DNA of 30,985 nucleotides, from positions 1 to 30,985 of IMG/VR virus record IMGVR_UViG_3300028178_000463; one strand, written 5' to 3'. The stretch comes from a virus. Position numbers and translations under genes: made by a program. The first letter of the stretch is position 1; each line of letters starts with the position of its first letter. Positions 4,264 to 29,744 of this stretch are shown here, in pieces. Under the pieces are notes generated by a model, which saw only the letters and a program-made list of their open reading frames with translations, was not told the DNA's origin and searched no databases.

Positions 4264-6116
4264 GAATAGCTCCGATCTTTTTTATCATTCGCCTGTTTAT
4301 TCATTGCACGTCGAACCTGCTCATCGATCTGCTTTTGAGTTTGTGCAGCGTGCTCTTTTGAAGTGAAGTTAGGGTTATTGATCGTTACGGCTACTGTATT
4401 ATTGGTTCCGCCGCGAGTAGGTATCGCTCTTGCTTCAGCGACACGCGGATTACTCAAGGCAACACGTGCCGGAGTAGGAACAGAACCACCGACTCCAAAA
4501 AATGACCCTATACCTTGCAGATTGCTGGAGACGAAGTTTAGTTTTGACTCTACCCAGTTAAAAAAATCTGCAAAAGGTTTGATGATCATCCCGATAATGG
4601 ATTTAAAGGTACCTACGATCGGAGTCCAATTATTGATAATAAGACCGAGAGGAGTCCACCCGAAAATAGCTTTGACTACTCCCCAAGCGACAGACACACC
4701 TGTAGATATACCATTCCATACTCCAGCAAAAAAGCTTTTAATTGGAGTCCAATTCGAAATGATCAAATAAGCAGCTCCGGCGACCAAAGCGACTCCACCG
4801 ATAATCCACCCAAATGTTGCCATCGTAGTAATACCCAATGCTCCCAACGCCATTGTTACTGCTCCAACCGCAATCCCAAGCGTTCCGAGTACTCCGGTGA
4901 CTACCGTAAACCCTACGATGGCTACTCCTACAAATTTCGTAACCCCCGGATGTTCTTTGGCAAACGATGATAATGACGAGGTAGCACCGTTAAACCATTC
5001 TGTCATCCCTTTCAGTTCCGGAGCCAAGCTCTCTCCGATGAGGGCAGTAAAGTTCGTTGCCGTTCCGGTTAATGCTCCCCACATATTTCCAAGCGTTTGC
5101 AATAAGTTCTTGACACGTGCATTAATATCAGCCTGCTCGGCAAGTTTTTTATTAAATGCTCCTAGCCCTTTAGTTCCGTTATTGATCAGTACATTGACCA
5201 TCCCGGACGCTTCGCCTTTTCCGAATATCGATTCGACGATACCGAGCCGAGCAGAGTCGCTTTTGATCGCTTTGAGTTTCTCCAGCTCGCTCATCATATT
5301 TGCCGTGCCCTTGAAATTTCCTCCGGCATCATTGAAATTTAACTTGATACCCATAGCATCGAGATTTTTATTGCCCTTAAATGAGACCGCATCTTTGATA
5401 ACATTTCCGAGATTGGTACCGACCGTTTCTCCTGAAAATCCTGCTTTGATCAACATTCCGATCAACGGCTCTACATCGCGAGCGGCTTTTAATCCGCTCA
5501 TTCCAAGCCCTTTCATCGTCGCCCCGATTTTTGAAAACGCAAAACTCATCTCTCCAACTTGGACACCCATGTGAGAAAGACGCTGGATGTCATCGATAAA
5601 CGGTAGAAGTTCATCATCCGCGATACCCAGAGCCTCTTTAAACTTTGCCGTTGCGGTCGCCGCTTCTTCGTATGGGATCTTTAACACGACACCGAGATAG
5701 GCGGCAGATTTGAGAGCACCCCCTACGATACTTTTCTCTTCGACTCCGAGTGATTTGAGCTGAGATGCCATTTTATAGAAGTCCGCAGTCGTTCCGGGAA
5801 GAGCATCACCGAGTTTCATAGCCTCATCGTTGATTGACTTAAAAAACGGGCTGATGCTTCCATCACTCTTCATCAGAGTGTTTTCGAGCTGTGTCCGAGC
5901 ATCTTCTAAATCAACGAAAGATTTGATAATGGTTTCAGTACTGCCTTGAGTGGCAAGCGATGCTCCCTTGAGACCGGTACCGATTCCAGACATGGCGATT
6001 CCGAACTCTTTGGTACCTTTTGTCATGTTTGACAGAGAACTCTTAAATGATGATAATACAGGGCTGAACTGATCTCTTGCCGTTAGCAAAATACCAAGCG
6101 TTAACGTTTTATCCAT
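4260..6116 (-). CDS. T: Tail tape measure protein
   Basis: A 618-residue tape measure protein (P2 gpT / TP901 core type), which sets tail length and is threaded through the tube. The N-terminus is helical (LTARDQFSPVLSSFKSSLSNM), followed by the conserved core of about 300 residues (FVDLEDARTQLENTLMK...DALPGTTADFYKMASQLKSLG). A long hydrophobic region lies at about 395-455, and a tandem NWTPI-x2-F motif appears at about 460 and 505. The ribosome-binding site GGAAGGAGACAGG lies inside the coding region of the chaperone extension. The length is shorter than P2 T (about 815 residues), which predicts a shorter tail than that of P2. Confidence 0.9.
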   Translation of the reverse strand: MDKTLTLGILLTARDQFSPVLSSFKSSLSNMTKGTKEFGIAMSGIGTGLKGASLATQGSTETIIKSFVDLEDARTQLENTLMKSDGSISPFFKSINDEAMKLGDALPGTTADFYKMASQLKSLGVEEKSIVGGALKSAAYLGVVLKIPYEEAATATAKFKEALGIADDELLPFIDDIQRLSHMGVQVGEMSFAFSKIGATMKGLGMSGLKAARDVEPLIGMLIKAGFSGETVGTNLGNVIKDAVSFKGNKNLDAMGIKLNFNDAGGNFKGTANMMSELEKLKAIKSDSARLGIVESIFGKGEASGMVNVLINNGTKGLGAFNKKLAEQADINARVKNLLQTLGNMWGALTGTATNFTALIGESLAPELKGMTEWFNGATSSLSSFAKEHPGVTKFVGVAIVGFTVVTGVLGTLGIAVGAVTMALGALGITTMATFGWIIGGVALVAGAAYLIISNWTPIKSFFAGVWNGISTGVSVAWGVVKAIFGWTPLGLIINNWTPIVGTFKSIIGMIIKPFADFFNWVESKLNFVSSNLQGIGSFFGVGGSVPTPARVALSNPRVAEARAIPTRGGTNNTVAVTINNPNFTSKEHAAQTQKQIDEQVRRAMNKQANDKKDRSYS

Positions 6117-6497
6117 CCTGTCTCCTTCCCATCTCTTTAGCTTCGTCCATAAAACACAATAAAAGCTCTAAATCCATATCTGCCATGTCGCTGTAGCTAA
6201 AATGGAGCCAATGCCCCACAATAGCCATAGCACTGATACAGTCTTCACGACTGATTACAAAAAATCATTGCGCTCTTTTGATAATTTCATAAAATCATCT
6301 GCATCGAGATCTTCGACGTCATCGAAGGTCATCATGCAAAGATTAGCGATTAGAATTGCTTCTTGCTTTGCCGTATTGTTACTTGCTTCAGACGCAGCAA
6401 TCAGATCACGTGCTTTTGGACGACGCATTTTTACTACGCTCCCATCATGCAACTTAATCTCTTTTTCATTAGCTCGTACAATTTCTTCTTTTTTCAC
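6109..6497 (-). CDS. Frameshifted tail chaperone (P2 E+E'-type long product)
   Basis: The short chaperone frame ends GAT TTT TTG TAA. A -1 slip on the T TTT TTG heptamer (6264-6258) continues reading for 49 codons to a TAA at 6109-6111. The extra part, written in pieces, reads VISREDCISAMAIVGHWLHF then SYSDMADMDLELLLCFMDEA then KEMGRRQDG. The H-x-x-FxxSDMxxMxLxELLxFxxEA pattern is that of P2 gpE' and of C-terminal extensions of related tail chaperones. The combined product would be about 129 residues. The extension ends just inside the tape measure start, the usual position. In lambda and P2 the ratio of short and long forms is required for tail assembly. The slip has not been tested. Confidence 0.75.
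6255..6497 (-). CDS. Tail assembly chaperone, short form (P2 E / Mu gp41 type)
   Basis: An 80-residue protein, read from a GTG at 6497 with AGGGG seven bases upstream; the open frame to 6551 lacks a plausible start signal. The sequence KEIKLHDGSVVKMRRPKARDLIAASE followed by NLCMMTFDDVEDLDADDFMKLS matches the phage tail assembly chaperone family (P2 E, Mu gp41), small helical proteins that bind the tape measure before tube polymerisation. It lies between the tube gene and the tape measure gene, as in P2. Its last codons contain the slippery heptamer. Confidence 0.82.
   Translation of the reverse strand: MKKEEIVRANEKEIKLHDGSVVKMRRPKARDLIAASEASNNTAKQEAILIANLCMMTFDDVEDLDADDFMKLSKERNDFL
6258..6264 (-). 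other. Programmed -1 ribosomal frameshift site, T TTT TTG
   Basis: The heptamer lies in the zero frame of the short chaperone as GAT TTT TTG TAA. It fits the X XXY YYZ rule with X = T, Y = T and Z = G. The stop codon follows immediately, so slippage is the only way to translate the conserved E'-like extension. Confidence 0.7.
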
Positions 6498-6510
6498 GTT
6501 ATTCCCCTTA

Positions 6511-7011
6511 TTACTGAATATGAGCGCGAAGCTCTGCGTATAGATCCACACCGTCGATGATGCAGATCATGTTTTCGAGATCGATGTCGATCACCTTAAC
6601 TCCATTGATCTCTTTGCTAAACACACTCACAGAAATCTCAAGCGTCATCTCAACCTCTTTGCCGCGATCAGGGATCGGGCTTCCGAGTTTTTTGACTTTA
6701 CCTTTGATCGTATGGAGTACCGGGATCTTTTGATCCCCTTGAACCATCGAACCTTTACAGAAAAAAGTCGGTGAGTTGCTAAACTGTTTAGAAACGGCGG
6801 AATAAACCTCTGTGTTGTACTCATTGAGTACGATCTCAGCACTCATCGCTTTGAGCAGAGGGATCACTTCCTCTACCGCTATTGCACCCTCACGCTCGCT
6901 TGTTAAAAATTCGAGTTCTGGAACTTTCAGCGACTTACTGACCCCGAGGTTTCCGATACCATTGACTAAGATGTTTTGGTCTCTCCAGATTTGACGATTT
7001 TTCGTTGCCAT
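6511..7011 (-). CDS. FII: Major tail tube protein (P2 FII type)
   Basis: A 166-residue protein of the phage major tail tube family. The start (MATKNRQIWRDQNILVNGIG), the central acidic and charged section and the C-terminal strand ENMICIIDGVDLYAELRAHIQ are typical. It would form the inner tube inside the contractile sheath, which is encoded directly upstream (12 bases between stop and start). AAGGAGAG eight to nine bases before the ATG lies across the sheath stop codon. Confidence 0.88.
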   Translation of the reverse strand: MATKNRQIWRDQNILVNGIGNLGVSKSLKVPELEFLTSEREGAIAVEEVIPLLKAMSAEIVLNEYNTEVYSAVSKQFSNSPTFFCKGSMVQGDQKIPVLHTIKGKVKKLGSPIPDRGKEVEMTLEISVSVFSKEINGVKVIDIDLENMICIIDGVDLYAELRAHIQ

Positions 7012-7023
7012 TATCTACTCTCC

Positions 7024-8118
7024 TTACCCGTTGATGATCGTGAGCAATACATCACTGTAATCGTCTACATAGACGAGTTCGATGTTCAGCTCACGAATGG
7101 TTGGCATGTTTTGGAAACGTACCGTTAGATAAAACTTGCCGGCGGTGACGGTCGCTTTTGTGTTCTTCGTACTGTCGAAATAGACTTCGAACCCGAGACC
7201 CACACCGTTGCCGATCAGCTCACGCATAAACTCTTCGACCGATTGCTTGACTTGAAGTAGCTCATCGGCTTGACGATCACGAGCCCATTTGCTTGCTGTC
7301 TGCATTGCGCGGAGCATTCGGTAGAATGTTCGAACACGCTCCAGCGATTGCCAAATAGGATCGATGTCGGTTGTCTCGAACCCGTATGAACGCCAACCCA
7401 CATCACGAACGATTGAGGCGATACCGGCATTACGTAAACGTCGTGCTTCACAATCCTGACCATCCGCATAATCGACGATGCGATCCATAGAGCTAACTCC
7501 TTTGACGACACGGTTCGATGCAGACTCCGCCCACCCGAATGGGTTAGATGCATCCATCGCCGCGATAAGACCTGCGTATGCTGCAGAAGGTGTGGTCACC
7601 ATTCCATTGATCGTGATTGAATCGGGACCAGCGAGAAGCACAAAACGGCTGCCGAAATTACCGGCATAAGTAAGAGCGGCTGTCTCGGTCATCGCAGTGA
7701 CATCGATGATAGCCGTCGCCCATAGTTTGGTCGCTACAGCATCCATCGCCGCACCGACCGTCGCGGTACCTGACCACTCAGGGCAAACGATCAGATCAGG
7801 GCGATACCCTGTCACCGCATAGGCGGTACTGAGTTCGGTTACCGCTGCGATCACATCCGCTTCGACGGCAGTATCCGCCAAAGCATTGATGATGATCGGG
7901 CAAGTTACCCCCTGAGCATCGATAGCACTGAGTGCCTCCTTGATCGTTCCCGTTGTCGCTGATGCGAACGCAGTGATCGCCAGTGCTACTGTCCCGTAAA
8001 ACTGTAACCCAAGCGTCCCCGCATCCGTTGTTCCGACGATGGCGATAGGCGTGGTCGATACGACCGTGACCGGACGCGCTGCATCTACGTTGATGCTTCC
8101 ATTGATTCCAAAACTCAT
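7024..8118 (-). CDS. FI: Contractile tail sheath protein (P2 FI type)
   Basis: A 364-residue tail sheath protein. It begins with SINVDAARPVTVVSTTPIAIVGTTDAG, the conserved N-terminal strand region of FI-type sheaths, and contains the C-terminal domain with ELIGNGVGLGFEVYFDSTKN and a final strand-rich segment. The frame is open to 8151, but the ATG at 8118 has AGGGGAAAG before it and overlaps the preceding stop (ATGA), so it is preferred. The protein would polymerise around the tube and contract on infection, making this a myovirus-type phage. Confidence 0.9.
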   Translation of the reverse strand: MSFGINGSINVDAARPVTVVSTTPIAIVGTTDAGTLGLQFYGTVALAITAFASATTGTIKEALSAIDAQGVTCPIIINALADTAVEADVIAAVTELSTAYAVTGYRPDLIVCPEWSGTATVGAAMDAVATKLWATAIIDVTAMTETAALTYAGNFGSRFVLLAGPDSITINGMVTTPSAAYAGLIAAMDASNPFGWAESASNRVVKGVSSMDRIVDYADGQDCEARRLRNAGIASIVRDVGWRSYGFETTDIDPIWQSLERVRTFYRMLRAMQTASKWARDRQADELLQVKQSVEEFMRELIGNGVGLGFEVYFDSTKNTKATVTAGKFYLTVRFQNMPTIRELNIELVYVDDYSDVLLTIING

Positions 8119-22632: not shown

Positions 22633-23037
22633 TTACTTCATATTTTGCAGTGCTAAGATCACCTTTTGAGCTTCATTAAACTCCATCTGATTTGGTGTCT
22701 CATACTCTTTCTTGATAATTCTCTTACAAAACGACAGTAGTGCGGTATCGCTTTTATCTCGTGCTTTTGACTCCCATAATTGCATGATCTTCCATATTTG
22801 CGATGGAGATGATTGTTTACATGTAAACGTCGGCAGAGTATCACGCTTCATGTTCAGATAATCAACGAGTATGATTAACTCTGATACACTGAGTGCAACT
22901 GATGAGTTTTTACCAAAAGCTCCCTTGAGCATCTCGACATATTCCTCTCTCTCATTGTTATAATAGTTCTGATATCGTGTCGAGGTATGTACCTGTTTGA
23001 CGAGTGATGAATAGGCGTCTTTTTGTCTTTTTGTCAT
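22633..23037 (-). CDS. gemA: GemA-like protein (Mu gp16)
   Basis: A 134-residue protein resembling the GemA/gp16 regulatory family. The N-terminal LVKQVHTSTRYQNYYNNEREEYVEMLKGAFGKNSSVALSVSELIILVDYL segment and the C-terminal ALLSFCKRIIKKEYETPNQM then FNEAQKVILALQNM match the family layout, in which a Ser-containing LS-x-x-EL segment is conserved. Mu GemA modifies host gene expression and DNA gyrase-related functions. It is followed after 76 bases by mor, the same neighbour order as in Mu. AAGGACTTAATT precedes the ATG. Confidence 0.75.
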   Translation of the reverse strand: MTKRQKDAYSSLVKQVHTSTRYQNYYNNEREEYVEMLKGAFGKNSSVALSVSELIILVDYLNMKRDTLPTFTCKQSSPSQIWKIMQLWESKARDKSDTALLSFCKRIIKKEYETPNQMEFNEAQKVILALQNMK

Positions 23038-23166: not shown

Positions 23167-24069
23167 CTATAGGAGAAAGTAGAGTTTTAGTTTTCCTTTA
23201 CCGTCTTTGACTTCCCAAAAGCGACCTGTATATTTAGCGAGATTGGTTCGAGCGAGCTTATCGTCTTTGGCTTTTCCGATCTCGGCGAGGAGTTGACTCT
23301 GACCGATACCGTCAGGATTCTTTTTGATCACCTCTTTGATCGAGTCGATGAATGATTGCTCTTCAGGTCGGATCATCGCTTGATCATAAGCAACGATACT
23401 GAGGTTATAGGTTTTCTTATCGAGATAGAACGCTGAGTTCTCGACATGGAACCTTCCCGCTTCTACATCGAGTAAGAAGAGATCGTTCTCTACAGTGCCG
23501 TTACCTTGACGCATAAAGTACACATTGTCAGCCGCAGACTTAAATACTCCGGCTCCCTGATAGTTCTTTTCGTTTTTGTTCGTATGATGCAGTAGTATGA
23601 CAGTTGCTCCGGCATTACGCAATCGCTTCATCGCGTTCATAAAGCTTTTAGCCATTGCTTCATTCTGCACGTCTCGGACAAAGTCGGTGATCGAGTCGAA
23701 GAAGAAGATGTAATCCCGATAAGCATCCCCAACCGCACCCTCAACGAGAAGCTTTAAGACTTCATGCGAAGTCATAGCTGCTGTTTCAGGGTGAACGTAG
23801 TCGAGCCGATCACATAACTCCTCGATGATCTTTGAAGCTCCGCGCTCTTTGAGTGCAGAGAGCGGATTGTCAAAGTCGAAATACTGAATGATCTTGTTAG
23901 TGTTTTCATAAAGGTACTTCGTCAATCCGAGACTGTATCGACTCTTACCCTGCTTAGGCGGGGCAAAGTAGATCGTAATCGCTTGCTCGACCAAGAAGTT
24001 ATCGATGATATAGTTAACTTCGTGATTAAAATGTTCGGACTTTAGTCCTTGACCTCGAAATGGATTCAT
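23167..24069 (-). CDS. RecA-fold ATPase of the RepA/DnaB-like helicase type
   Basis: A 300-residue P-loop ATPase. Walker A is APPKQGKS at 36-43, Walker B YIFFFDS at 120-126, and a sensor-type segment VILLHHTNKNEKNYQGAGVFKSAADNVY follows at about 157-184, the arrangement of RepA-like (AAA_25) replicative ATPases. The last 70 residues look like a winged helix (SIKEVIKKNPDGIGQSQLLAEIGKA). Such ATPases act as hexameric helicases or helicase loaders. Mu uses host replication proteins and has no such gene, so its presence among the early genes is unusual. Confidence 0.78.
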   Translation of the reverse strand: MNPFRGQGLKSEHFNHEVNYIIDNFLVEQAITIYFAPPKQGKSRYSLGLTKYLYENTNKIIQYFDFDNPLSALKERGASKIIEELCDRLDYVHPETAAMTSHEVLKLLVEGAVGDAYRDYIFFFDSITDFVRDVQNEAMAKSFMNAMKRLRNAGATVILLHHTNKNEKNYQGAGVFKSAADNVYFMRQGNGTVENDLFLLDVEAGRFHVENSAFYLDKKTYNLSIVAYDQAMIRPEEQSFIDSIKEVIKKNPDGIGQSQLLAEIGKAKDDKLARTNLAKYTGRFWEVKDGKGKLKLYFLL

Positions 24070-24143: not shown

Positions 24144-24587
24144 TCATTGCTCAAGTTTTTTAGCTTGCTTTTGTTGAAACCTATCACACTCATAGACGTT
24201 ATCATTCCCAATACCTGTACCAAAATTCGGTGATGCTCTACATGTAGCAAAGCAAAGATTACAATCCTCGCAGAGGTTTACTGTAGCTTTTTGCTCTGCT
24301 CTTACAATACGTTCATACTCAGCCATAAGCAATGATGCTGATATAACAAGTTGTCTTTTACGATCGTGTTTGTATTTTTTAAAAAAAGTTGGAATCCAAG
24401 GGAAAAGCGGACGCATTGGAAAGATAGTGCTGTTTGCTACTTTAAAGATTGGACATGATGCAGCGTAGCAAGCTGCTGCATCTGCAAGATCACCATCGAT
24501 GTATTTATCATCATCTTCAGATTTATATCCTTTAACATTGATGTGTCTTCGTCTTTCTTGCTCTACTTGTCGTAAAAAATCACTCAT
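24144..24587 (-). CDS. Small early protein with D-rich helical domain and Cys-cluster tail
   Basis: A 147-residue protein, starting at the ATG at 24587, which overlaps the end of the upstream gene by eight bases (ATGAGTGA). The N-terminal 100 residues have the layout QVEQERRRHINVKGY..DDKYIDGDLADAAACYA, then FFKKYKHDRKRQLVISASLLMAEYERI. I recall this from many phage early proteins, where H/E-x-DD-x-H/Y-x-x-G-x-L-A-x-AA-x-x-YA is conserved and the function is not assigned. Residues 106-116 hold C-x2-C-x2-C-x3-C and residue 134 a fifth Cys, suggesting a zinc or iron-sulphur site. It is coupled to the barrel-domain gene before it. Confidence 0.65.
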   Translation of the reverse strand: MSDFLRQVEQERRRHINVKGYKSEDDDKYIDGDLADAAACYAASCPIFKVANSTIFPMRPLFPWIPTFFKKYKHDRKRQLVISASLLMAEYERIVRAEQKATVNLCEDCNLCFATCRASPNFGTGIGNDNVYECDRFQQKQAKKLEQ

Positions 24588-24825
24588 TGAGCACATCCCC
24601 GATAGATCCGATATCATCTAGTTCGATGACGCAGATCTCATCTCCGAACATGGTATAAACACGGAAATTTTGCTTTTCGCTTCTTACATCTACTTCCATA
24701 TCCAAAAGCATATCTTGTCCTTCGTAGGGCTCTAATGCCTCATGCTTATACCGTTTATTTTTATACATCACGCCGCCAGAAGCAACCTTTCGTATAATCG
24801 GAGAAAAAGGAGGTACGGCACTCAT
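24580..24825 (-). CDS. Stand-alone protein resembling the transposase C-terminal beta-barrel
   Basis: An 81-residue protein. Residues 11-72 align by eye with residues about 519-577 of this phage's own transposase: both have RKV, then a Gly two to three residues later, Y-x-H-x-AL-x-x-Y-x-G, and further on VY-x-M followed by ICV-x-E. This is the Mu-type transposase beta-barrel domain (Mu-transpos_C). No catalytic domain is present. It begins within the stop of the Gam-like gene (ATGA) and overlaps the next gene by eight bases. It could modulate the transposase by competing for its partners, but this is inference. Confidence 0.6.
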   Translation of the reverse strand: MSAVPPFSPIIRKVASGGVMYKNKRYKHEALEPYEGQDMLLDMEVDVRSEKQNFRVYTMFGDEICVIELDDIGSIGDVLNE

Positions 24826-25334
24826 GCTGCACTTCCTTCAAGATCGTTCTCTTTCGTTTCAATCCAGAACTTATCTTCGACGACCAATGTTGCATCGACA
24901 AGCGCTAGACGTTCTGCACTCCATGTCCGCATCACATCTTTGTTTACTACTGGCTTGATTGTAATTGCATCATCAAACCCATGCTTTTGGCATAGTTCAA
25001 GTGTTGTCTTTTTGATAGAAACACTTGTGCTCTGACGGTACCCAAATAGACCAAACGATAATTCGATTGTCTTTTTATCGCTGAACAGCTCTGCTTTGTT
25101 ATATTCGCTATAAATTGCGAGCGACTTTTCAAGACCTTCAATCTCTTCAAGCATAGGGCGAGTACTCTCAGCGAGCTTTTCTTTGATCTCATTGACCGCG
25201 ATATCAGCTTCTGCTTGACCGATACGAACGTTTGCTTTTAAATCAGCAATCTTATGTAGTACTGCATTTGCTTCAGAGAGCGATGTGATCTTTTTAGTCT
25301 CAATTGTTGGTTTACTTCGTTTATCTTTTGCCAT
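24822..25334 (-). CDS. gam: Gam-like host-nuclease inhibitor protein
   Basis: A 170-residue protein of the Mu Gam type. A long helical pair (EANAVLHKIADLKANVRIGQ through EEIEGLEKSLAIYSEY) is followed by the conserved LSFGLFGYRQSTSVSI segment and a C-terminal half ending VVEDKFWIETKEN, the family's F-x-I/V end. Mu Gam binds double-stranded DNA ends and blocks RecBCD-type nucleases; it is related to bacterial Ku. The start at 25334 has GGGAGAA seven bases before it; the longer frame to 25409 runs through the control region and is rejected. Confidence 0.85.
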   Translation of the reverse strand: MAKDKRSKPTIETKKITSLSEANAVLHKIADLKANVRIGQAEADIAVNEIKEKLAESTRPMLEEIEGLEKSLAIYSEYNKAELFSDKKTIELSFGLFGYRQSTSVSIKKTTLELCQKHGFDDAITIKPVVNKDVMRTWSAERLALVDATLVVEDKFWIETKENDLEGSAA

Positions 25335-25428
25335 AATCTTCTCCCAATATACAAAGCCGTATCGCATAGCTACTGCGACACGCACTTTTTTCTTTATTCT
25401 AAGTCCCACACTGAACCACCTAATTTTT

Positions 25429-26293: not shown

Positions 26294-26816
26294 CGCGTTT
26301 CTCCTTATTGATAGTAAAAATAGCTTGCCCATCTCTACTCATATCTGTAGATTGGCATATCATTATTTTCTGGTCACTAAATTCACGAAGATAACGTATC
26401 GATTGCATCGAATATACATTGAAACCAGCCATATCCGCTATCTCTTTTCTAGTCATTTGTTCATGCTCCATTACATGTAAGAAAGAGAGCTTATCAGCTA
26501 CCTGCAGAGGATGTTTTCCATCCAACACAAATATTTCTTTTATGTTTTGATCCTTGATAGTCTCTTTATTGATGATTGGTGAGCGAATTCCTGTATCATT
26601 CTTCAATAAAAAGATACGATCTCTAAACAATTCAGATCCGCTTACTAGCTTGAGATAACCACATAGCTCGAAGCTATGGATAATATTCATCAAAAACTGA
26701 GGCTTAAGCTCCAATATCATCATCAGATCACCGACTCTAAACTGTCTATTTCTACGCATAAATTCCCAAATTTGCTGTTTTTTACTCCGTCTTACACGTT
26801 TAAACACCAAGCCCAT
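26241..26816 (-). CDS. Winged-helix-like early protein, unknown
   Basis: A 191-residue basic protein. The N-terminal half (RSKKQQIWEFMRRNRQFRVGDLMMILELKPQFLMNIIHSFELCGYLKLV) and the C-terminal half (HVMEHEQMTRKEIADMAGFN then VYSMQSIRYLREF) each look like a winged helix. It is not a family I can name. GGAGTAGAAC precedes the ATG, and the gene overlaps B by 17 bases. The position directly after B suggests a partner in transposition or an early regulator. Confidence 0.7.
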   Translation of the reverse strand: MGLVFKRVRRSKKQQIWEFMRRNRQFRVGDLMMILELKPQFLMNIIHSFELCGYLKLVSGSELFRDRIFLLKNDTGIRSPIINKETIKDQNIKEIFVLDGKHPLQVADKLSFLHVMEHEQMTRKEIADMAGFNVYSMQSIRYLREFSDQKIMICQSTDMSRDGQAIFTINKEKRDELIRTLEESLRSTRSA

Positions 26817-27504
26817 GTTCTACTCCGCTTGTTTTAAAGATACTCAAATTTACGCTGAGTGTATCGTTCATCTCACACCAATTCTCTAAACGTAGCAGCA
26901 TCACTTTAATCTGTCTTAGATTGGGATAACGTTTCGCGAAAAAACCTACAAGATCATCCTCTATTTTTACGCTTGAGAGAGCGCAAAACTTTTCTACGTC
27001 TACAAGTCCAATTGCTTCGAACTTTATCAGTTCAACGATACGGCTATAGTAGTGACGATGTCTCTTAAACTTCGCGTTGGCTTCTTCCATCCCGATAAAA
27101 AAGACGATGATCTGCGTCTCATCATGTAGATCTCGAAGTAGTTCGAGCACCGGAGTCTTTTCAGCTTTGAGCAGTGCGTCCACTTCATCGATGATCACGA
27201 TACGTGGATCGATTAAAAATGACTCTTTAACACGTTCATACATCTGTGAGCTATGTCCTTTTGTATCAAGACCTAGTTCGGTGCATAGTTTGACAAGTAA
27301 ACTTGTTTTACTCCATGTTTGAGCCGCTCTGAGCAGTATTGCATTTTCTTTCGCAGATATCCGCTCTAAACCTACTGTTTTTCCAAGTCCAAAGTTCCCA
27401 AATCCAAGACCCATACGCGGTGCTGTGGTAGGTAAAGCTTTAAGGTTTAAAAAACCTGCCAATAAATTGCTATAATTTCGTGTTTCGATAAATTGTTCCT
27501 TCAT
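26800..27504 (-). CDS. B: MuB-like transposition ATPase
   Basis: A 234-residue AAA+ ATPase of the MuB/TniB kind, encoded just after transposase A. Walker A is GNFGLGKT at 36-43, Walker B IVIIDEVD at 102-108, and the sensor I region VFFIGMEEANAKF is present. MuB selects target DNA, activates the transposase and gives target immunity. Mu B has 312 residues with an N-terminal helix-turn-helix of about 65 residues; that part is missing here, and the protein starts directly with the AAA+ domain. AAAGGAG precedes the ATG. Confidence 0.9.
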   Translation of the reverse strand: MKEQFIETRNYSNLLAGFLNLKALPTTAPRMGLGFGNFGLGKTVGLERISAKENAILLRAAQTWSKTSLLVKLCTELGLDTKGHSSQMYERVKESFLIDPRIVIIDEVDALLKAEKTPVLELLRDLHDETQIIVFFIGMEEANAKFKRHRHYYSRIVELIKFEAIGLVDVEKFCALSSVKIEDDLVGFFAKRYPNLRQIKVMLLRLENWCEMNDTLSVNLSIFKTSGVEHGLGV

Positions 27505-27569: not shown

Positions 27570-29744
27570 CTATCCAATCTTTTTACGTTCATATTCCCGA
27601 TAAGCAATATCCCATAGCTCCGGTTGTTTTTGTTTGAGTCGCTCTGTCGATTCATCCACCATGTTATGTTCAAGATCCCATAAAAATCGGTCTTGGACAT
27701 AGTTAAATACGGGTCGTCCACTTGGCAGTAGTTTTTCTCCCTCCATGTTGATGATGTTTGACTCTTCAAGTGCTTTAGCATCTGCCTCTGCAAACATCTT
27801 AATCCCATCTCGTACCGCCCGTATCGTCTCTGTTGATTTTGATACGGCGATAGTTGATGCTCCACTCCATCCACTTCTCTCTTCCATCGATGCTTCAATG
27901 CGGTCTCGAATCGTTGGATCAAGTCGGCGGCTTGTCTCTTCCCAAGTTTCAAGAAGTTTGGCGTATTCTCTTGCGATGCGGTGTCCGATCCGTTTACCCT
28001 CAGCGAGTTCAGCACGGCTTTTACCCATGTACTCATAATCCTCAGCAACGCAGATCGGTTCGTAATTCATCCGGTACACGCTTACATACCCCATATCGGA
28101 GTGAGTCATGATCCGAACGATCTCTCCGACATATTCGGCTAATGCCACATGCTGATATAGCGCACCATCGAGCCTGATACCTTTCTTCCCGACCTTTCTT
28201 TCGAAGCTCTCACCAAGGAGTAGATCGAGCATCCTCGAATCATTTATACCTTTGACAGGTATGGCTTGCTCTTGCCATTTTGCAAGAGGTGTTTTATCTT
28301 TAATGCCGCTATGACCTCTATATTCATAGATATTGTCACACCATTTATCAATGATCTTTTGAAGATGATCTGCTTCTATAGGAAGCTTGAGCTCTAATCC
28401 AAGATTGCTTTTTTTGATAGCAAAACGGTTCTCAAACTCTTTTTGTTCTGCCTTTTTTGCCTCTTCTCTCCATTTTGCTTGAGACTCGATCTTATGTGCA
28501 AAGCCTCTGCGTGATTGGATCGCTGAACGCTCTGCTACCGAGTGACCGACATATCCCTCAAGCTCTTCAAAGAGCTCACGGCTCAGTGTCCCAAACATCC
28601 TCTCGATATGCGGCTTCATATCACCGCTAAACGGTGGAACTGTTACCTTGGCGATGCCGAGGTTATAGCAGATCGAGTCAAAATGATTTGATTGATAATC
28701 TTTCCCGTTGTCTACGACTACGTTCTCAGGTATACCGAGTCTAAGGATTGCTTTACGAAGCAGCCGAGCGATGCTGTAACTGCTTGATCTCTCATCCACC
28801 CAAAACACACATCGCCTTGAGTAGATATCGATCATCCCGAGTATCGCATACCGTTTTCCATCCCGACAGATAATATCCGCAGGCGTAGAATCCAGTTCCC
28901 AATAGTGATTTGGATAAAGAGCCTTTTCACTTAGACTTCCCATCGCCGGGAGATAACTATTTTTCCATTTGTCTGCACTCTGAGCAAACGCATAGAGGCT
29001 ATGGTTGATTCGCTTCCATTGGTTTAAGAAGTTATTGAGTACATCGTAGCTGCACATTGCTTCGCCAAACTCATGATTCATGTTTTGATAGATTGCAGAT
29101 ACTCTCAGAGGGTTATCACGACGGGCGAACATTCGCACTGCCATATCCTGCATCTTCTCACTCATACTCACAGAGCCTTTGACACGACCTCGTGCATCAA
29201 GCAGTGCGACTAGTGGACTCTCACCCACTTTTCGCGCTTCATCAACCGCTTTTTTCCATCGAAATAGCTTTGCTTCGTTTATATCTATGATATCAAACCT
29301 TACATGTAAGCTTTTGATGTACTCTTTTGCGCTGATCCTGCGATCTCTCTGTTCATATCCCTCTATCGCCTCCATTTTTAGAAGCGTTTTAGTGCGTTGT
29401 TCAGATGATGCATTGAGATACGACTTCATATCCGGAGCGATAATGACCTCTGTAGTCACTATCTTTTTCTCTTTTGAATTAGAAATGAGAGTGTTTCGCT
29501 CTTCTAAAGAGCACAATATCCCGCAATCATCATACAGATCGATGTTCTCATCGACTACTCCGCTACGTAATGCTTCCATTAGAGCATCTTCACTGACTCT
29601 AATTAGGAGTTTTTTACCGCCGCGACCTCCGCCCTTGATATACAGTGAGTGATATTTATCAGAACCGCGCTTCACCGCTTTTTTAAGGGCTTCATATTCG
29701 ACACTCAGCACAACTGCTGCCGTCCTTGCTTCCAAATATTTCAT
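27570..29744 (-). CDS. A: Mu A-like DDE transposase
   Basis: A transposase of about 724 residues, with residue numbers below from an alternative GTG three codons upstream. Residues 4-60 form a winged helix that binds the internal enhancer or operator region in Mu. The DDE core has Asp288 (YWELDST), Asp348 (VVVDNGKDY) and Glu384 (KPHIERMFGT), with 35 residues between the last two, the DD(35)E spacing. A beta-barrel follows at about 520-577, then a helical tail that binds MuB in Mu. It cuts and joins the phage ends and forms the transpososome. The ATG at 29744 has AGGTGG five to six bases before it; the GTG at 29753 abuts the upstream stop and lacks a separate site. Confidence 0.93.
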   Translation of the reverse strand: MKYLEARTAAVVLSVEYEALKKAVKRGSDKYHSLYIKGGGRGGKKLLIRVSEDALMEALRSGVVDENIDLYDDCGILCSLEERNTLISNSKEKKIVTTEVIIAPDMKSYLNASSEQRTKTLLKMEAIEGYEQRDRRISAKEYIKSLHVRFDIIDINEAKLFRWKKAVDEARKVGESPLVALLDARGRVKGSVSMSEKMQDMAVRMFARRDNPLRVSAIYQNMNHEFGEAMCSYDVLNNFLNQWKRINHSLYAFAQSADKWKNSYLPAMGSLSEKALYPNHYWELDSTPADIICRDGKRYAILGMIDIYSRRCVFWVDERSSSYSIARLLRKAILRLGIPENVVVDNGKDYQSNHFDSICYNLGIAKVTVPPFSGDMKPHIERMFGTLSRELFEELEGYVGHSVAERSAIQSRRGFAHKIESQAKWREEAKKAEQKEFENRFAIKKSNLGLELKLPIEADHLQKIIDKWCDNIYEYRGHSGIKDKTPLAKWQEQAIPVKGINDSRMLDLLLGESFERKVGKKGIRLDGALYQHVALAEYVGEIVRIMTHSDMGYVSVYRMNYEPICVAEDYEYMGKSRAELAEGKRIGHRIAREYAKLLETWEETSRRLDPTIRDRIEASMEERSGWSGASTIAVSKSTETIRAVRDGIKMFAEADAKALEESNIINMEGEKLLPSGRPVFNYVQDRFLWDLEHNMVDESTERLKQKQPELWDIAYREYERKKIG

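Follow-up and report, generated by a model that had tools for sequence, protein, structure and literature searches.

The window analysed here, a virus record of 30,985 bases, contains an early operon in which the genes follow the order transposase (A), B, an HTH gene with small genes, Gam, barrel, Cys-rich protein, RecA/KaiC-like ATPase and GemA (Table 1). The gene of interest is the ORF directly after gam, which begins with ATG and encodes a protein of 81 aa consisting of a beta-barrel alone, with neither the DDE catalytic core nor the DNA-binding HTH domains of a transposase. Close relatives were found in Sulfuricurvum and Campylobacterales genomes, suggesting that the host is probably a sulfur-oxidising campylobacterotan.

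Table 1. Coordinates of the barrel gene, its operon neighbours and the residues discussed in the text.
Feature	Position in window	Strand	Basis or remark
81-aa free-standing Mu-transpos_C-like beta-barrel protein (family F1)	24580–24825 (including stop codon)	-	ORF, Pfam, profiles
ATGA overlap of Gam stop codon and barrel gene start codon	24822–24825	-	Same overlap in 9 other F1 members
Shine-Dalgarno-like AAGGAAG within the end of gam, upstream of the barrel start	24832–24838	-	Sequence
Gam-like DNA-end protection protein	24822–25409	-	Directly upstream of barrel gene
Next gene downstream of barrel, Cys-rich C-terminus	24144–24617	-	
RecA/KaiC-like ATPase (AAA_25)	23167–24069	-	Further down operon
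GemA-like protein	22633–23037	-	Marker of Mu-like early/middle operon
Mu-type DDE transposase (A), 727 aa	27570–29753	-	
Transposase beta-barrel (Mu-transpos_C) domain, residues 517–577	28023–28205	-	
MuB/TniB-like AAA+ ATPase (B)	26800–27504	-	Expected partner of transposase barrels
Transposase K523-K524, aligned with PseTnsB R443-N444 (AAA+ contacts)	28182–28187	-	Alignment
Barrel protein S16-G17, aligned with transposase K523-K524	24775–24780	-	Alignment
Acidic hairpin residues 44–50 (E-V-D-V-x-x-E) of the barrel protein	24676–24696	-	Conserved in F1

A search for the same gene in relatives recovered 11 members of a single family, F1 (the window, L001, L003, L005, L006, L007, L008, L044, L058, L062 and L063). 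The gene upstream is Gam or DUF3164 directly in 8/11 members and amidase-like in L058 and L063, while in L062 the F1 gene is located elsewhere. In 10/11 the F1 start codon overlaps the upstream stop codon and is accompanied by a purine-rich ribosome-binding site, most relatives carrying a stretch akin to the AAGGAAG of the window; the ATGA overlap in the window likely couples translation of the barrel gene to that of Gam. Among F1 pairs with measurable dS, dN/dS lay between 0.09 and 0.34 (dS being saturated in many pairs), which shows purifying selection in the pairs where it can be estimated. Taken with the start overlap and ribosome-binding site, these values indicate that the barrel gene is in all likelihood expressed and selected. 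A lineage of Mu-like phages, most of them from Campylobacterota, has retained F1 as an early, coupled gene that follows Gam/DUF3164.

The site upstream of the barrel gene is itself variable. Gam and DUF3164 (PF11363) interchange at this one site (window, 24822–25409; L005, 5212–5859; L006, 9958–10614; L007, 7273–8001) in early operons that are otherwise similar, as if DUF3164 substituted for Gam at that place, and the leader MGLRIKKKVRVAVA.LYGFVYWEKIM is common to the Gam phages and the DUF3164 phage L007. The idea that the barrel has a Gam-specific partner is weakened, since DUF3164 occupies the place of Gam in L005, L006 and L007. In L058 (5482–6024) and L063 (11050–11592), the amidase-like gene (MKVALIVGHKESSPGA...) lies between DUF3164 and the barrel, the early operon being an unusual place for a lysis-type enzyme.

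A sequence-only reading of this stretch had described the ORF as a free-standing duplicate of the barrel domain of this phage's own transposase, pointing to the motifs RKV, a following Gly, Y-x-H-x-AL-x-x-Y-x-G, VY-x-M and ICV-x-E, all of which are indeed present in both proteins. BLASTP aligned residues 12–68 of the barrel protein with residues 519–571 of the window transposase (32% identity over 57 positions, E value 6e-4 as calculated for one single comparison). When searched against 24,736 Pfam models, the window protein matched Mu-transpos_C (PF09299) with 20.0 bits (E value 6.8e-4), slightly under the gathering score of 21.7 bits; the relative G001 exceeded this cut-off in a whole-genome search (26.5 bits), and 9/11 F1 members matched the model individually (best E value 5.8e-6). 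Using a profile of 16 transposase barrels only, the window protein scored 20.8 bits and the weakest F1 member, L008, 11.1 bits, compared with a maximum of 9.0 bits for 4,500 shuffled sequences. The similarity also survived profile–profile comparison of F1 with the transposase barrels (hhalign: probability 95.6%, E value 1.1e-8, 63 columns).

Searches from the side of the small proteins gave a matching picture. A small-protein profile run over 15,474 reading frames returned, next after the small barrels, Mu-like transposases at residues ~500–570. Outside F1 and one barrel of a second family (F2, located in the same prophage and described below), the F1 profile matched almost only frames of 400–710 aa in 399 whole genomes; this is the size of Mu-type transposases, and several of the matches coincide with independent Mu-transpos_C positions. 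F1 and transposase barrels have the framework R-x-V...G-I/V...Y..H..L....G..V in common, F1 retaining the hydrophobic core, the invariant first arginine and the Y-H-L-G residues. Searching PDB sequences with the F1 profile returned chance matches only, so that a link to the PDB needs transposase profiles or folds. Among 50,697 records of cultured phages, there were no relatives of the window protein or of the L058, L003 F2 and L066 barrels. A 54-aa match in G119 was a chance hit in another frame of a GGDEF/EAL gene.

Two AlphaFold2 models of the window protein, built with 7 and 11 aligned relatives, both predicted the fold beta-beta-beta-alpha-beta-beta-beta (mean pLDDT 75.3 in both; pTM 0.60 and 0.57), which is of the MuA IIbeta type. 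Structural alignment of the second model placed TnsB, IstA or MuA barrels at all of PDB ranks 1–9 (Z 5.3–7.1), with the best unrelated chain at Z 4.3, and the first model gave a similar picture; a Z of 5–7 is not decisive by itself for a barrel model of medium confidence. Foldseek E values were weak, yet the first six matches were all TnsB barrels. The best match among viral models (BFVD) was A0A8S5MQA4 (32% identity, E value 2.3e-4). Judged by sequence profiles and predicted fold, the gene product is homologous to domain IIbeta of Mu/Tn7/IS21-type transposases; this homologue is free-standing, devoid of catalytic parts and located in the early operon, as the sequence-only reading had supposed.

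The part of that reading which made the gene a copy of this phage's own transposase barrel fared less well. In a tree of 79 barrels, F1 formed one clade (93/85) that well-supported branches separate from the window transposase barrel. Forcing F1 and the window-type transposases into one clade was not rejected (AU p = 0.33, 75-column alignment), because the domain is too short. Any duplication of this phage's own transposase barrel would be an old event.

F1 also diverges more quickly than the transposase does in these phages (49–72% versus 87–96% identity for the four closest), with no visible tracking of the one by the other. Between the window and L003, Gam is 95–96% identical but the overlapping barrel gene only 51%, pointing to a recombination border where gam ends.

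F1 is not the only form in which the barrel occurs outside a transposase. F2, a second small and slightly basic barrel, lies directly upstream of the ATPase gene in L003 (7159–7356) and L044 (8797–8997). L063, which also has an F1 barrel, encodes a Cys-rich finger joined to a barrel upstream of A (4771–5112), L066 a coiled coil joined to a barrel upstream of A (2501–2983) and L120 a barrel-like stretch upstream of its transposase gene (45–383). Statistical support for the L066 and L120 barrels is weak, below that for F1 and F2; both retain a transposase-like KK pair. No stand-alone barrel was found in Mu, D3112, HS6, CAM-P21 or MuM16-1 at the sensitivity used, the transposase barrel of each serving as positive control and being the only one detected. 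Several weaker candidates were dropped: those of L058 (126 aa), L064 (79 aa) and L003 (272 aa) owed their labels to E values from tiny sets and were absent from the full-set search, the matches in L052 and L054 appeared to be RuvC-like proteins, and weak matches in L071, L067 and L045 were rejected as barrels.

The L044 prophage lacks A and B, and no transposase was found in that genome; despite this, it retains both of its stand-alone barrels (F1 and F2). It looks like a decayed Mu-like prophage. In its region 6387–8000 (G204:C7), a C-terminal piece of a repressor is followed within ~100 bases by the small gene that precedes gam.

Where F1 departs from the transposase barrels is at the surface. 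The first hairpin of the PseTnsB barrel aligns without gaps, RTLTRNGFKYQE with RKVGKKGIRLDG, such that K523, K524 and R527 of the window transposase correspond to PseTnsB R443, N444 and K447. According to a cryo-EM preprint, R443 and N444 of PseTnsB bind the AAA+ protein TnsC, transposition drops strongly when either one is mutated singly, and R439, T440, K447, Q449 and E450 make contact with target DNA (PMC13228271). These contact roles are carried over to the phage proteins by alignment and should be read as predicted. The basic pair at 523-524 is missing from all F1 members: position 523 is K or R in 58/63 transposases and in 0/11 F1 proteins, where it is N, D, S, F or G, position 524 is G in 10/11, and position 527 is never basic. 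R519 and the pocket residue V521 (PseTnsB L441) are retained. The hairpin at residues 44–50 is longer in F1 than in transposases, with D46, V47 and E50 invariant in 11/11. Net charge across F1 ranges from -2 to -14, with a mean of -0.10 per residue compared with 0.00 (SD 0.07) across 106 further small genes from the same phages; the window protein is less extreme, ~10% of those genes being equally acidic. As aligned, F1 proteins lack the basic hairpin predicted to touch the AAA+ regulator and target DNA and have gained a conserved acidic one. A plain DNA-binding barrel is weakened as a candidate by this charge and by the loss of the basic positions.

The same differences emerge when F1 is set beside characterised systems. 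MuA domain IIbeta (PDB 1bco, 1bcm, 4fcy; PF09299) has the strand and helix order of our model, the core motif and the Pfam model in common with F1; however, in MuA the barrel is a domain within a DDE enzyme, where it binds target DNA as part of the transpososome (PMC3362531), whereas the F1 barrel is an acidic protein of its own without the basic hairpin. TnsB barrels of CRISPR-associated transposons (8ea3, 7svw, PseTnsB) are the best structural matches (Z 6.7–7.1), but F1 does not conserve the TnsB residues that make contact with TnsC or DNA (R443, N444 and K447). The IstA barrel of IS21 (8b4h, 8q4d) has the same fold (Z 5.7) but docks on IstB and packs the tetramer, while the F1 barrel has no catalytic neighbour. 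A0A8S5MQA4, a 73-aa 'Transposase' of Podoviridae sp. ctUS21 known from its database record alone, is likewise a stand-alone protein of barrel size with a predicted structure.

Truncated transposase products that act as inhibitors include Tn5 Inh and IS1 InsA, in which DNA-binding or dimerisation parts of the same gene are kept. The window barrel resembles them in that a portion of a transposase is produced as a protein of its own within one element, but differs in being a separate, old gene for the barrel alone. The fold and the domain are already known, and at least one similar small protein is present in databases under the name transposase; among the open-licence papers searched, we found no description of a stand-alone Mu-transpos_C protein or of a coupled, acidic family of this kind.

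The barrel protein is probably a repurposed accessory protein. The best explanation overall, which we advance tentatively, is a small accessory of the early transposition/replication machinery that works by protein binding. The barrel would bind protein rather than DNA, the protein concerned would belong to the transposition machinery, and the most likely target would be the transposase or its AAA+ partner, approached through a face other than the lost hairpin; the outcome might be a tuning of transpososome assembly or of the use of the MuB-type ATPase, whether to inhibit or to help. In PseCAST and IS21, it is the barrel that docks the transposase on its AAA+ partner, and the IstA barrel rests on neighbouring DDE domains (PMC13228271, PMC11208146, PMC10122671); binding of a free barrel to the transposase or to B is therefore conceivable, and so is a role as assembly factor or regulator through another face. 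Counting against an accessory of transposition are the faster evolution of F1 without visible tracking of the transposase, the persistence of F1 in L044 without A and B (though that prophage looks decayed) and the ability of Mu, D3112, HS6, CAM-P21 and MuM16-1 to manage, at the sensitivity used, without a stand-alone barrel.

Fast evolution would fit with a fold recruited outside transposition, the acidic protein being made early to block a host factor (a nuclease, restriction or another defence) in the style of a DNA mimic, an account we consider doubtful but worth keeping in view. The negative charge and conserved acidic hairpin are in keeping with it, as is Gam as a neighbour in 5 loci, the gene then lying beside gam because early anti-nuclease genes cluster there. 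The DNA mimic Ugi appears among the structure matches (Z 4.8 and 4.1), but with scores like those of unrelated chains; DUF3164 is found upstream just as frequently as Gam, and none of the defence and anti-defence models matched. The clear homology is to a transposition domain, which gives the link to transposition the better prior.

The sequence-only reading had also offered a decoy or dosage regulator. In such a role, the free barrel would limit transposition by filling the site that the transposase barrel requires, either on its MuB-like AAA+ partner or on target DNA. The barrel–AAA+ contact is required for transposition in IS21 and PseCAST (PMC11208146, PMC13228271), F1 keeps V521 and R519, and stand-alone barrels of the F4 and F5 types in other phages keep the KK pair. 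In F1, however, the residues aligned with PseTnsB R443, N444 and K447 are replaced and the protein is acidic, so it would not be expected to bind DNA or the AAA+ protein as a transposase barrel does. A simple competitor copying the docking face is disfavoured because the AAA+ and target-DNA contact positions are changed in all F1 members; we regard it as unlikely, and less likely than binding by another face.

Convergence of small SH3-like barrels without common descent, already disfavoured, strikes us as very improbable: the domain is short, identity is about 30% and the model is of medium confidence, but the reciprocal profile searches, the hhalign result, the common framework and the DDE transposases that fill the top PDB matches all speak against it. 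Scarcely credible is a functionless remnant of a transposase gene that decayed or recombined, an idea that the mosaicism of Mu-like genomes and the decayed state of L044 might favour but that purifying selection refutes in the main, alongside 11 intact members in diverse phages with low dN/dS, their own start and ribosome-binding sites and family-specific conserved residues.

If the favoured accessory role were extended beyond F1, freed transposase barrels might be dedicated trans-acting regulators of Mu-type transposition that arose more than once in different Mu-like phages (F1, F2, zinc finger plus barrel, coiled coil plus barrel), their new acidic face binding the transposase or AAA+ protein and setting the balance between integration and replication; we offer this as a speculation with the chances against it. 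In Mu, Tn7, IS21 and CRISPR-transposon systems, it is through the barrel that the transposase docks with its AAA+ regulator, and a natural separate barrel with altered docking residues would be a ready tool for testing what this domain does and might also offer a natural means of controlling such transposases. Should it have no action on transposition, it would still be a clean case of a transposase domain reused in a phage. Within F1 itself, the barrel of L008 (8001–8381) is fused to a zinc-ribbon-like CxxC...CxxC tail, and in L003, L044 and L058 the gene right after the barrel gene encodes a Cys-rich protein with a motif of the CxxC...CxxC type.
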